This document shows, piece after piece, positions 47,403 through 51,604 of a stretch of 64,000 nucleotides of DNA. The notes beneath the pieces are model-generated. The model worked only from the letters and a program-made list of their open reading frames with translations. It made no database searches and was not told the DNA's origin. The translations under genes were made by a program, and so were the position numbers. The first letter of the stretch is position 1, and every line of letters begins with the position of its first letter. Source of the DNA: Actinomadura graeca (GTDB lineage: Bacteria; Actinomycetota; Actinomycetes; Streptosporangiales; Streptosporangiaceae); the NCBI RefSeq assembly GCF_019175365.1, contig NZ_CP059572.1:1736001-1800000 (forward strand). The letters are read 5' to 3'.

Positions 47403-49871
47403 CTAGCGCTTGGGCACGATGTTGACGATCTTGGGCGCACGCACGATGATCTTGGCGATCTCGGCGCCGCCCAGGGCCTCCTGGACCCTGGCGGAGGCCA
47501 GGGCCAGCCGTTCCAGCTCCTCGCCGGCGATGCCGGGCGCGACGTCGAGCCGGTCGCGGACCTTGCCCGCGACCTGGACGACGCAGGTGACCGACTCCTC
47601 CACCAGCAGCGCGGGGTCGGCCGACGGCCAGCCCGCGCGGATCACCGGCGCGGTGCGTCCCAGCAGCTCCCACGTCTCGTCGGCGGTGTAGGGGGCGAAC
47701 AGCGACAGCAGCACCGCCATCGCCTCGGCGGCCTCGCGGACGGCGGGGTCGGCGGCGCCGGGCCCGGAGTCGATGGCCTTGCGGGTCGCGGTGACCAGCT
47801 CCATGATCCGCGCGATGGCGACGTTGAAGCGCTGCGCCTCGACCAGCTTGGTGGCCTCGTCGACGGCGCGGGCGGTGGCGCGCCGCAGCGTGGTGGAGCC
47901 GGACGCGGGGTCGGTTCCGGGCGGCGAGGCGACCTCGGCGGCGATCCGGTGGACGCGGGCCAGGAACTTGGACATGCCGTGCGGGGACACGTCCGCCCAG
48001 TCGATGTCGTCCTCCGGCGGCCCGGAGAACAGCATCGCCAGCCGGACGACGTCCACGCCGAACTCGCCGATCTGCTCGCCCAGGTCGACCAGGTTCCCGG
48101 TGGACTTGGACATACCGCTGCCGTTCAGGATCACCTGCCCCTGGTTCAGCAGCCGGTTGAACGGCTCGGTGAAGCCGACCAGGCCCATGTCGTACAGGAC
48201 CTTGGTGAAGAACCGGCTGTACAGCAGGTGCAGGATGGCGTGCTCGACGCCGCCGGTGTACTGGTCGACCGGCATCCACTTGCGGACCTGCTCGGTGTCG
48301 AACGGGCCGTCCTCGTAGCCCGGGGAGCAGTAGCGGTAGTAGTACCAGGACGAGTCGACGAAGGTGTCCATGGTGTCGGTGTCGCGCCTGGCGGCGCCGC
48401 CGCACTTGGGGCACTCGACGTCCGCCCAGGCCGACGCGGCGGCCAGCGGCGAGGTGCCCTTGGGCGCCAGGTCGGCGCCGCGCAGCCCCTCGGGCAGCGT
48501 CACCGGCAGCTGCTCGTCGGGGACGGGGACCTCCCCGCACGCCTCACAGTGGACGATCGGGATCGGGCAGCCCCAGAACCGCTGGCGGGAGACCAGCCAG
48601 TCGCGCAGGCGGAAGTTGACGGAGGCGCGGCCGGTGCCGTGCTCCTCCAGGATCTCGACGATCCGGGCGATGGCGTCGGCCTTCACCAGCCCGTCGATGG
48701 GGCCGGAGTTGACGATCGCGCCGTCGCCGGGGGTGGCGACGCCGGTCTCGGCCGGGTCGGCCTGCCCGGTCTCGACCACGACCCGGACGGGCAGGCCGAA
48801 CTTCAGCGCGAAGTCCAGGTCGCGCTGGTCGTGCGCGGGCACCGCCATGATCGCGCCGTGCCCGTACTCGGCCAGGACGTAGTCGGACGCCCAGACCGGC
48901 AGCCGCTCCCCGTTCACCGGGTTGACCGCGTACCGGCCCAGGAACACGCCGGTCTTCTCACGCTCGGCGGACAGCCGCTCGATCTCGCTCTCGCGGGAGA
49001 CCTCCTCGCGGTAGGCCTCGAACGCGGCGCGCTGGTCGGGGGCGCAGACCTCCTCCGCCAGGGCGGCGTCGGCGGCGACGACCATGAACGTCGCGCCGTA
49101 CAGGGTGTCGGGGCGGGTGGTGTAGACGGTGACGGGCTCGTCCCGCCCCTCGATCACGAAGTCGACGTCGGCGCCGGTGGAGCGGCCGATCCAGTTGCGC
49201 TGCATCAGCAGGACGCGCTCGGGCCACTTGCCCTCCAGCTGCTCCATGTCGTCCAGCAGCCGGTCGGCGTAGTCGGTGATCTTGAAGTACCACTGGGTCA
49301 GGACGCGCTTCTCGACCAGCGTGCCGCAGCGCTCGCAGTGCCCGCCGACGACCTGCTCGTTGGCCAGGACGGTCTGGTCCTTGGGGCACCAGTTGACGTG
49401 GCCGCCCTTGCGGTAGGCCAGGCCCCGGTCGTACAGGCGCAGGAACAGCCACTGCGTCCACTTGTAGTACTCGGGGTCGGAGGTGTGCAGCCGCCGCGAC
49501 CAGTCGAAGGACGGCGCGTACCGGCGGAACGACGCCGCCTGCGTGTCGATGTTGGCGTACGTCCACTCGGCGGGGTGGGAGTCGCGCTTGATCGCGGCGT
49601 TCTCGGCGGGCAGGCCGAAGGAGTCCCAGCCGATGGGGTGCAGGACGTTGTACCCGCGCTGGAACCAGTAGCGCGCGACGACGTCGCCGATCGCGAACGC
49701 CTCGGCGTGACCCATGTGCAGGTCACCGCTGGGGTAGGGGAACATGTCCAGCGCGTAGCGCCGCTCCCGGCCGTCGTCGTCCTCCACGGCCTTGAACGGG
49801 TCGAGCTCCGCCCAGCGGGCCTGCCACTTGTCCTGAACCGCCCGTGGGTCGTAATGCTCGTCGCTGCTCAC
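47403..49871 (-). CDS. leuS: Leucyl-tRNA synthetase
   Basis: 822 residues from GTG 49871, which gives the N-terminus [19 protein letters not shown]; the frame is open further upstream to 49988 but that part overlaps the leader and its hairpins. Class I synthetase signature [16 protein letters not shown] (HMGH, about 50-65), the CP1 editing domain in the middle, and the KMSKS-like SGMSKSTGN at about 580. It charges tRNA-Leu. Expression is probably attenuated by the leucine-codon leader just upstream. Confidence 0.97.
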
Positions 49872-49929
49872 GCTTCCAGGCTCCGCATTCTGCTCAAGAG
49901 GGTCGCCAGACCGCCCGCCGACATGAAAC

Positions 49930-49981
49930 GGCCCCTCGCACAGGAGGGGCCACCACGCTGACGTCAGTTCGTCAACGTGGT
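49930..49981 (-). promoter_or_regulatory. Candidate leuS attenuator: two adjacent hairpins
   Basis: On the minus strand, stem 1 pairs ACCACGTTGAC (49981-49971) with GTCAGCGTGGT (49962-49952), 11 bp with one G-U pair; stem 2 directly follows, GGCCCCTC (49951-49944) with GAGGGGCC (49937-49930), a perfect 8-bp stem and 6-base loop, then CGTTTC, which is terminator-like. The stop codon of the leucine leader lies inside the 5' arm of stem 1. I did not find a clear alternative (antiterminator) pairing, so the switching mechanism is open. Confidence 0.55.
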
Positions 49982-50007
49982 CGTTCAAGGAGCAGCCTGG
50001 CTGGCAT
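49972..50007 (-). CDS. Leucine leader peptide upstream of leuS
   Basis: 11 codons, [11 protein letters not shown], with Leu codons CTG-CTC-CTT in a row at codons 5-7 and TGA as stop. No Shine-Dalgarno is present; a TACGCT hexamer ends six bases before the ATG, so the transcript could be leaderless, as is seen for several actinobacterial attenuator peptides. The run of three leucines directly ahead of leuS, and the stop within a hairpin arm, are what ribosome-mediated attenuation would need. Confidence 0.55.
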
Positions 50008-50114
50008 ACAGCAAGCGTAGCGCAACCGCAAGCCCTCCCGCCGCGCCTTTGCCGGTCGGTACCCGGACGGCTGCGGCCCGGACGGCCGGTCCCCCGGACG
50101 TCGATCCAGGACGA

Positions 50115-50774
50115 TCAGTGCCCGGACGACTGGCGGGCGAGGGAGACGACGCCGGTCACCTGGACGTGGGTGAGGCCGAGGTCGGAGCCCACGGCCGACA
50201 GGGTCTCCTCCTCCGAGACGCTGAGGGGGCCGTCGATCAGGGCGATCTCGGCGGCGGCGCGCAGGATGCTCTCCCTCGCCTCGGGGGCCAGCGCGGAGGA
50301 CGCCCGTCCCATCTCGGCGCGGACCTCGTCGAAGGGGCGGCCGAGGTCGGCGTTCAGCGCGCCCTCGTCGTAGGAGGTGTCACCGGCCTGGCGCACGACG
50401 GTGACGGCGCGGGCGCGGGCGCCCACGTGGGTGTAGTCCCCGGAGCGCAGCACCTGGGCGATGGCCATGCGCAGCAGCATCGCGGGCATGCGGGCGAGCT
50501 GCGCCGTCGTCGGTATCTCCAGGATCCCGGGATTCCATCGGCCATGGCAGGTGTCGCACTCGACGAACTCGCCGCCCGCCTTCGTCAGCGGGATGACCGG
50601 GATGAAGAACAGGGTGAAGAAGTTGCGTCCCTGGCGCCGGCGGTAGTCACGGTCCCCGCCGCAGTCGGGACAGTGGAAGATTCCCCTGGTCAGGGTGAAG
50701 AAGACCACCCGCCAGCCGAAGATGATCAAGATCGCGCGCCCTTTCTCGGTGAGGCGGCACATCGTAACGGGCAT
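50115..50774 (-). CDS. Zinc-ribbon membrane-associated protein with TerB-like C-terminal domain
   Basis: 219 residues from ATG 50774; TTG 50729 (start LIIFGWR) is an alternative. One hydrophobic segment LIIFGWRVVFFTL is followed by a zinc ribbon, FHCPDCGGDRDYRRRQ and FVECDTCHGRWNP, with FFTLFFIPVIPL between. The C-terminal half (about 95-219) is helical: DEVRAEMGRASSALAPEARESILRAAAEIALIDGPLSVSEEETLSAVGSDLGL, the TerB signature. TerB proteins are linked to tellurite and stress responses. The gene lies upstream of leuS in the same direction with a separate leader region between. Confidence 0.78.
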   Translation of the reverse strand: MPVTMCRLTEKGRAILIIFGWRVVFFTLTRGIFHCPDCGGDRDYRRRQGRNFFTLFFIPVIPLTKAGGEFVECDTCHGRWNPGILEIPTTAQLARMPAMLLRMAIAQVLRSGDYTHVGARARAVTVVRQAGDTSYDEGALNADLGRPFDEVRAEMGRASSALAPEARESILRAAAEIALIDGPLSVSEEETLSAVGSDLGLTHVQVTGVVSLARQSSGH

Positions 50775-50995
50775 GCCGGGCCCCCAGCGGCGCGGGCCGG
50801 GAGCCCGGTCCGCGGGGCCGGATCCGGTCAGAAAAGTGAAGTCTTGACGTAGGGTCGGACATGCTCGAAGCTCTTGGTAAATAGGAAGGTTTCCTATCAA
50901 TACTGGAGGTCGTCCTTCCCGAGACGCTCCCGCCCCGGCGGCGCCGACTCCGATCCGGTCGTCCCGCCAGATTCCCGCCCCCAGGAGGATCGCGT

Positions 50996-51604
50996 ATGCC
51001 CGGCACATTCCGTCTACCCCGCAAGAGGAGCCTGGCCCTCGCCACCGCCGCGTCGGCCGGCCTCACGGTGGTCGTCGCCACCCCCGCCCTCTCGCACGGC
51101 TTCGCCACCGCGCCCGTCAGCCGCGCCCTGAACTGCAAGCAGGGCACGGTGAAGGACTGCGGCGAGGTCCAGTTCGAGCCGCAGAGCGTCGAGGGCCCGC
51201 AGGGGTTCCCGAAGTCGGGTCCCGCGGACGGCAAGATCTGCGCCGCCGGTGACTCCCGCTGGGCCCCGCTGGACGACCAGCGCGACGGCGCGTGGCCCGC
51301 CACGTCCCTGACCAGCGGCCAGAGCTTCACGTTCTCGTGGACGCTGACCGCGCCGCACTCCACCTCGTCCTTCCGGTACTTCATCACCAAGGACGGCTGG
51401 GACTCCAAGCGGCCCGTCACCCGCGCGGCCCTGGACCTGAAGCCGTTCCTGACCGTCGACGGCGGCAACAAGCAGCCGCCCCGCACGGTGTCCCACCCCG
51501 GCACGCTGCCCACCCGGCACGGCCGGCACCTGATCGTCGCCGTCTGGGACATCGCCGACACCGGCAACGCCTTCTACCAGTGCTCGGACGTCGACTTCGG
51601 CTGA
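50996..51604 (+). CDS. AA10 lytic polysaccharide monooxygenase (chitin/cellulose-binding)
   Basis: 202 residues, ATG with AGGAGG about eight bases upstream. Signal peptide about 1-33, cleaved after ATPALS so that the mature protein begins with His34 (HGFATAPVSR). His34 and His121 (APHSTSSF) form the copper histidine brace; FYQCSDVDF at the C-terminus holds the aromatic axial residue. It is a single-domain AA10 enzyme that oxidatively cuts crystalline chitin or cellulose outside the cell. No carbohydrate-binding module or chitinase gene is adjacent. Confidence 0.95.
   Translation: MPGTFRLPRKRSLALATAASAGLTVVVATPALSHGFATAPVSRALNCKQGTVKDCGEVQFEPQSVEGPQGFPKSGPADGKICAAGDSRWAPLDDQRDGAWPATSLTSGQSFTFSWTLTAPHSTSSFRYFITKDGWDSKRPVTRAALDLKPFLTVDGGNKQPPRTVSHPGTLPTRHGRHLIVAVWDIADTGNAFYQCSDVDFG

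Follow-up and report, generated by a model that had tools for sequence, protein, structure and literature searches.

A candidate leaderless leader-peptide attenuator ahead of leuS in Actinomadura graeca and its distribution among related genomes

Candidate attenuators ahead of leuS, the gene for leucyl-tRNA synthetase, were published in 2005 for Streptomyces avermitilis and S. coelicolor (PMC1262725; all articles given here by PMC number are cited from partial text), and these two are the only species that the available part of that article names for leuS. Later on, the leader peptide LeuL2 (MRAVRLLLSEPR) of S. lividans TK24 was listed in 2021 as leaderless and accompanied by a hairpin and a U-run, RNA-seq being at hand for S. 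lividans (PMC8079986). Two further systems come close. The LEU element (leuL1) of actinobacterial leuA is a leaderless Leu-run leader for which a base stem with the start region has been described (PMC1262725), and the ilvB-II motif of Corynebacterium places a leader ORF over a hairpin P1 that is followed by a terminator hairpin P2 with a U-run (PMC10272879). The available parts of PMC8269248, PMC10272879 and PMC4833913 cite a survey that Lopatovskaya and others published in 2010. A literature search, with most subscription papers outside its reach, recognised no description of leuS leaders beyond PMC1262725 and PMC8079986; the accessible text of PMC3896937, PMC9413887 and PMC11995493 held no leuS leader, "leuS" there being part of an author's name (in two of them) or a neighbouring gene (in the third).

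The locus analysed here lies in a stretch of 64,000 nucleotides of Actinomadura graeca (contig NZ_CP059572.1, positions 1,736,001 to 1,800,000; the window), a genome whose closest named relatives are Actinomadura, and its features are collected in Table 1. On the minus strand the leader reads ATG CCA GCC AGG CTG CTC CTT GAA CGA CCA CGT TGA, which bears out a preliminary description of an 11-codon frame with three Leu codons in tandem ahead of leuS. In the same description the stop codon had been placed inside the 5' arm of an 11-bp stem; the stop codon does lie there and the stem exists, and only its length has to be corrected, to 12 bp in the minimum-energy fold with one G-U pair. The CCAC base of this hairpin 1 starts 6 nt past the last Leu codon. 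The second hairpin (49951-49944 with 49937-49930) abuts the first and consists, as had been seen, of 8 perfect base pairs, GC in composition, followed by GTTTC, the U-run in the window being as short as TTT. A gap of 58 nt separates the leader elements from the leuS start codon. The minus-strand fold of 49870-50050 reaches -90.7 kcal/mol (z = -3.06 against shuffles), and a strict terminator scan and a sigma-70 scan of 49700-50300 gave no match. By eye, no conserved -35 box was seen in 39 printed upstream stretches of leuS leaders. In many of these the motif TGCG(C/G) recurs right before the TANNNT box (50020-50024 in the window). Further upstream, a gene at 50115-51008 on the minus strand shows weak zinc-ribbon and TerB-like matches, both just below the Pfam cut-offs.

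Table 1. Features of the leuS leader region in the window
Feature	Position	Strand	Basis or remark
-10-like box TACGCT	50014..50019	-	6 nt before leader ATG, leaderless layout
Leader ORF, 11 codons, to TGA	50007-49972	-	Sequence read; kept in relatives
Three Leu codons CTG-CTC-CTT	49995-49987	-	Last codon, CTT 49989-49987, is the register codon
Hairpin 1	49952..49981	-	Arms 49981-49970 / 49963-49952, loop 49969-49964; fold and covariation
Terminator-type hairpin GGCCCCTC-CTGTGC-GAGGGGCC with GTTTC tail	49925..49951	-	Fold; weak in the window
leuS, leucyl-tRNA synthetase, short (about 820 aa) type, GTG start 49871	47403..49871	-	Pfam; TIGR00396 936.6 bits (cut-off 548.4)

The window element belongs to the kind already known from Streptomyces. 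Like the Streptomyces leuS attenuators it combines a Leu-codon leader ORF with a terminator ahead of leuS, whereas the available text of PMC1262725 marks antiterminator hairpins and no conserved one was found here. Like LeuL2 it is a short Leu-run ORF directly before leuS, and it shares with it the core RLLL..PR and the hairpin with a U-run; the leaderless arrangement reported for LeuL2 (PMC8079986) is suggested for the window by the spacing of the -10-like box. The window leader differs from LeuL2 in peptide sequence, in having the shorter U-run and in the type of its leuS: Streptomyces-type leaders in our set precede the long LeuS type and the window leader precedes the short one. A covariance model (R1) was built from 43 leaders, all from loci with a LeuS sharing 65% identity or more with that of the window, after nine atypical leaders had been left out and 43 of the 46 non-redundant ones had been aligned (alignment A1). 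Built without Streptomyces-type leaders, R1 nevertheless matches leaders with the exact S. lividans peptide, which occurs in L126, L139, L143 and L144, at 74-79 bits. In sequence and structure, the window leader is thus the same RNA as the Streptomyces leaders. The preliminary description had held such a leader peptide to be less usual in front of an aminoacyl-tRNA synthetase gene; the attenuator reading is supported, and the kind had been predicted before for Streptomyces leuS (PMC1262725, PMC8079986). New here are the 6-nt register, the last-codon rule, the spread over families and the pattern of two LeuS types.

Ahead of leuS, the leader was read at 26 of the 30 loci of a first search (window included), all 26 with LLL, and at 61 of 80 named loci, 51 of them with LLL and ten without; the 80 include L058, which has no upstream DNA, and some genomes are common to the two sets. 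At L001-L110 a leader was taken to be a small ORF that contains Leu pairs and is accompanied by a TANNNT box. The named holders are Actinomadura, Streptosporangium, Nonomuraea, Sphaerisporangium, Planobispora, Actinocorallia, Allonocardiopsis, Trebonia, Arthrobacter, Paenarthrobacter and Nocardioides. No leader was recognised at 12 Nocardiopsidaceae-type loci (Nocardiopsis, Thermobifida, Streptomonospora and L064, labelled Glycomyces), two of Kocuria, two of Microbispora and one of Arthrobacter (L097), and leuS can therefore do without it. When R1 was run on 29 sources (loci without a read leader plus L182-L188), seven matches were obtained at E <= 1, namely L182, L187, L188, L086, L029, a weak one at L183 (34.9 bits) and an insignificant one at L055 (E 0.24); L086 and L029, the latter cut by a contig end, add two to the 61 of 80. 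In the genome of the window the leader is the sole strong match (91.1 bits), the next one, ahead of another gene, scoring 23.3 bits. Across 393 genomes of the class, R1 finds 220 with a match at E <= 0.01 and 141 at E <= 1e-7, the latter under 20 family labels among the matches listed; the other 79 match only above 1e-7 and may hold ilv or citramalate leaders, like L175 and L178. By tblastn, leuS lies downstream in 68 of the 71 matches that were fetched (the window's own included), and the remaining three precede citramalate synthase (L112, L178) or acetolactate synthase (L175). On comparative grounds, the leader pattern is not due to chance. Judged by these matches, leuS would carry a leader for leucine supply, a role usually credited to T-boxes, in a third or more of the genomes sampled from the class.

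Both hairpins are conserved as structures. In an alignment of 100 chosen loci (A2), which was fitted to the model and so leans towards the model structure, 96.2% of the cells are paired and 13 of 16 pairs have changed on both sides, a number that none of 500 shuffles attained (shuffled mean 6.6). Sliding the pairing partner abolishes the covariation signal. The structure-free MAFFT alignment A1 shows double changes in 11 of 16 pairs. The upper part of hairpin 1 varies freely with covariation, and its base, CCGC:GCGG, is nearly invariant. The comparison with related genomes that the preliminary description had proposed has thus shown most relatives retaining both the Leu run and the stems, with covariation in the latter, and not the loss that would have spoken against an attenuator.

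The anatomy of the leader was followed in 154 leaders (146 distinct), 138 of which contain LLL. Among the distinct ones the start codon is ATG in 115 and GTG in 31, the stop codon TGA in 97 and TAG in 49, and the TANNNT box, which partly guided the choice of leaders, precedes the start codon by 6 nt in 123 and by 7 nt in 21. The spacing between the last Leu codon and the CCRC base of hairpin 1 is 6 nt in 135 of 154 leaders, 3 nt in 11, and other or indeterminate in 8. The 6-nt register is present in 129 of the 146 distinct leaders, and in these the last Leu codon is CTT in 116, CTC in 13 and CTG in none, as against 83% CTG and 1.2% CTT in 74 named leuS genes. The codon two places before it is nonetheless CTG in 81 of the 129, and the constraint therefore falls on the codon nearest the hairpin and not on the whole run. 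A sensor of tRNA-Leu(GAG) was the first reading of this rule; a more general rare-codon rule fits as well, because ATT closes several of the Ile leaders that precede citramalate synthase, which isoacceptor choice leaves unexplained. Downstream of the second hairpin, 140 of 154 leaders have TTT within 12 nt and 144 of 146 have at least four T among the following 8 nt, T counts that lean upward in that the terminator finder rewards T. As in a classical attenuator, the regulatory codons are so placed that a stalled ribosome would cover one arm of hairpin 1, and an intrinsic terminator, weak in the window itself, lies between leader and gene. The leader, its register, the rare last codon, hairpin 1, the terminator and the linkage to leuS are drawn from sequence and comparison, and both the register and the codon rule are open to mutational testing.

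Because the layout is leaderless, hairpin 1 covaries and a terminator follows, the element is very probably a ribosome-mediated attenuator, and the candidate attenuator of the preliminary description gains support from the kept leader, the covarying stems and the terminator. We consider it likely that the element is a leaderless leader-peptide attenuator through which leuS responds to leucine, and that it represents in Actinomadura what the leuS attenuator LeuL2 is in Streptomyces. For its operation we infer the transcription start, the stalling of the ribosome, the direction of control and the step from stall to readthrough. Transcription would start at or next to the leader ATG, as suggested by the spacing of the -10-like box, and a ribosome would initiate at once. 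When charged tRNA-Leu is ample, this ribosome would pass the Leu codons and be released at the stop codon, hairpin 1 would close, the adjoining terminator hairpin would form and most transcripts would end near 49925. Under a shortage of charged tRNA-Leu the ribosome would wait on the Leu codons. A ribosome shields about 12 nt beyond the first base of the A site. Halted with the last Leu codon in that site, it would just reach over the CCRC base and hold hairpin 1 open, whereas a halt at the first Leu codon would leave that base uncovered. An open hairpin 1 would let RNA polymerase run through into leuS more often. Two candidates may be named for the link between hairpin 1 and the terminator: the 3' arm, once freed, may form a short-lived, unconserved antiterminator, or efficient termination may depend on hairpin 1 in its end-to-end stack with the terminator.

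The switch pairing that had escaped the preliminary description did not emerge here either, since neither the tested pairings nor an alignment-wide helix search nor ribosome-masked folding yielded a conserved antiterminator. The 3' base of hairpin 1 pairs with the terminator apex no better than with permuted apices (-4.99 vs -5.58, with the place of the base corrected and 95 of 154 sequences usable), the median rank being 0.675 with 3 of 95 under 0.1 (0.63 before the base was corrected in Actinomadura). Pairing of the P2 3' arm with the P1 loop is the antiterminator proposed for the ilvB-II motif in the available text of PMC10272879, whereas its counterpart here, the interior of hairpin 1 with the terminator 3' arm, was no better than shuffled in 143 sequences (median rank about 0.60-0.62). 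The leader codons show a slight excess of pairing with the terminator 3' arm (-10.3 vs -9.5; median rank 0.32, with 19 of 145 under 0.1), for which a pyrimidine run may be responsible. Beyond hairpin 1 (11 pairs) and the terminator (7), the helix search of the 100-sequence alignment left helices too short to build on: runs of 4-5 columns, mostly of a G-rich arm with the U-tail, together with the hairpin-1 foot AGCC with the terminator end GGTT (94%) and the leader start TGCG with CGCG (90%). The near-invariant base of hairpin 1 would be in keeping with a further partner of its 3' arm, and the search found none. The missing antiterminator poses a concrete question for attenuation in high-GC bacteria.

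The leuA element offers another way in which such a leader could act, with the Leu codons pairing with the leuS start and the leader ribosome freeing it, instead of or besides termination. In the window the Leu codons do pair with the leuS start region in the minimum-energy fold, leuA has been described with such a base stem (PMC1262725), and both genes have a Leu-run leader of leaderless layout. The pairing was examined at 57 of 87 loci, using the nearest start codon. In 22 Actinomadura loci its mean of -17.2 surpasses that of shuffled leaders (-15.2, sd 0.66; 0 of 200 sets as good), but these genomes are close kin, the leuS start encodes conserved residues, and swapping the pairing between species gave values as good in 190 of 1000 swaps. 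In the other genera (35 loci), 185 of the 200 shuffled sets and 970 of 1000 swaps were as good, so that a base stem with the start region is unsupported for leuS leaders outside Actinomadura. Moreover, a terminator-type hairpin sits between leader and leuS start, whereas leuA is without a typical terminator according to the available part of PMC8079986. Translational control of this type is unlikely, but the pairing is the one with partial support among those tested, and in Actinomadura the Leu codons may also act through the leuS start region. A plain constitutive pair of terminator or processing hairpins beside an unrelated small ORF, with leuS served by a downstream promoter or by partial readthrough and without leucine sensing, would agree with the failure to find an antiterminator and with equilibrium folding of 129 sequences, in which the median terminator probability is 0.97 both without a ribosome and with one on the last Leu codon. 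The Leu codons, the register and the rare last codon are, however, kept over some 20 family labels while other residues and the stop codon shift, which makes such an arrangement improbable. A T-box or another metabolite riboswitch would suit a synthetase gene, given that T-boxes control many of these elsewhere and that translational ones precede ileS in Actinobacteria (PMC1262725), but it is very unlikely here: in accordance with the T-box motif having been judged absent, Rfam showed no family at its gathering score in the whole window and none in 49800-50150 at E up to 1, and the conserved element is a short ORF with two small hairpins. A programmed +1 frameshift at CTT that fuses leader to leuS is scarcely credible and is refuted as a general mechanism, for, despite a stem 6 nt past CTT that recalls frameshift sites and a leuS frame open back to the leader in the window (ORF to 49988), that frame stays open at no more than 21 of 87 loci and its register relative to the leader is variable.

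The attenuator-type leader is found before two deeply separated LeuS types. A tree of 60 LeuS rows divides short (42) from long (18) with 100/100 support, and long-type rows are 57-80% and short-type rows 59-79% identical to the reference of their own type, against mostly 34-44% between types (highest 47.8%). The 68 leuS loci with an R1 match comprise 29 of the long type and 39 of the short (L121 typed on 62 residues). At L182 (genome G024, of the window's order), a single leader (85.8 bits) stands before a long leuS of 991 aa, and 14 nt past the last sense codon of that gene homology to a short leuS sets in, giving a tandem that is a possible intermediate of leuS replacement. Genome G215 carries two leuS genes, one per type, each with its own leader (L125 and L149, the latter typed by tblastn identity alone). 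Standing before both types, in tandem and separately, the leader has therefore persisted through a change of the gene that follows it, which may have come about either by displacement of leuS or by an old duplication with differing loss. In either case a regulatory RNA has been kept while its enzyme gene exists in two deeply divergent versions.

Leaders of similar layout also precede other genes. The leuS model matched branched-chain leaders before acetolactate synthase (ilvB) at L175, L194, L196-L199, L201, L203, L206 and L208, where the gene was identified from its sequence without a family scan; this kind of leader is already known. An Ile-rich leader precedes citramalate synthase in 30 of 30 Actinomadura loci examined, 29 of them with the terminator motif searched for. 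Tentatively, and with more doubt than confidence, the leuS, ilvB and citramalate-synthase leaders might be placed in one antiterminator-free, leaderless class in which the ribosome opens a hairpin 1 that is itself required for termination, with a fixed register ending on a rare codon in U or C, and which in the case of leuS outlived the replacement of the synthetase gene. Codon changes in the S. coelicolor ilvB leader left regulation unaltered (Craster 1999, as reported in the available part of PMC1262725), a result that was counted against the attenuator reading. The Actinomadura citramalate-synthase leader typically reads MRxSLVIIGWRAG..., followed by two close hairpins and a T-run, a layout similar to that of the leuS leader. 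By eye, Ile-rich leaders (IIIS, IIIP, IIIR, LIIT and similar) stand in other families before a gene of the same sequence type. A literature search combining citramalate synthase, leader peptide and attenuation found no description in the text available, the terms being unconnected where both occur. Besides L178, such leaders were located at L200, L202, L205, L207, L209-L211 and L213-L241. In the genome of the window the citramalate leader lies at G000:C1:7041120-7041231 (L112, L212), and the gene at L112, the one among L112, L178 and L175 that was family-scanned, is citramalate synthase (TIGR00977, 599 bits).
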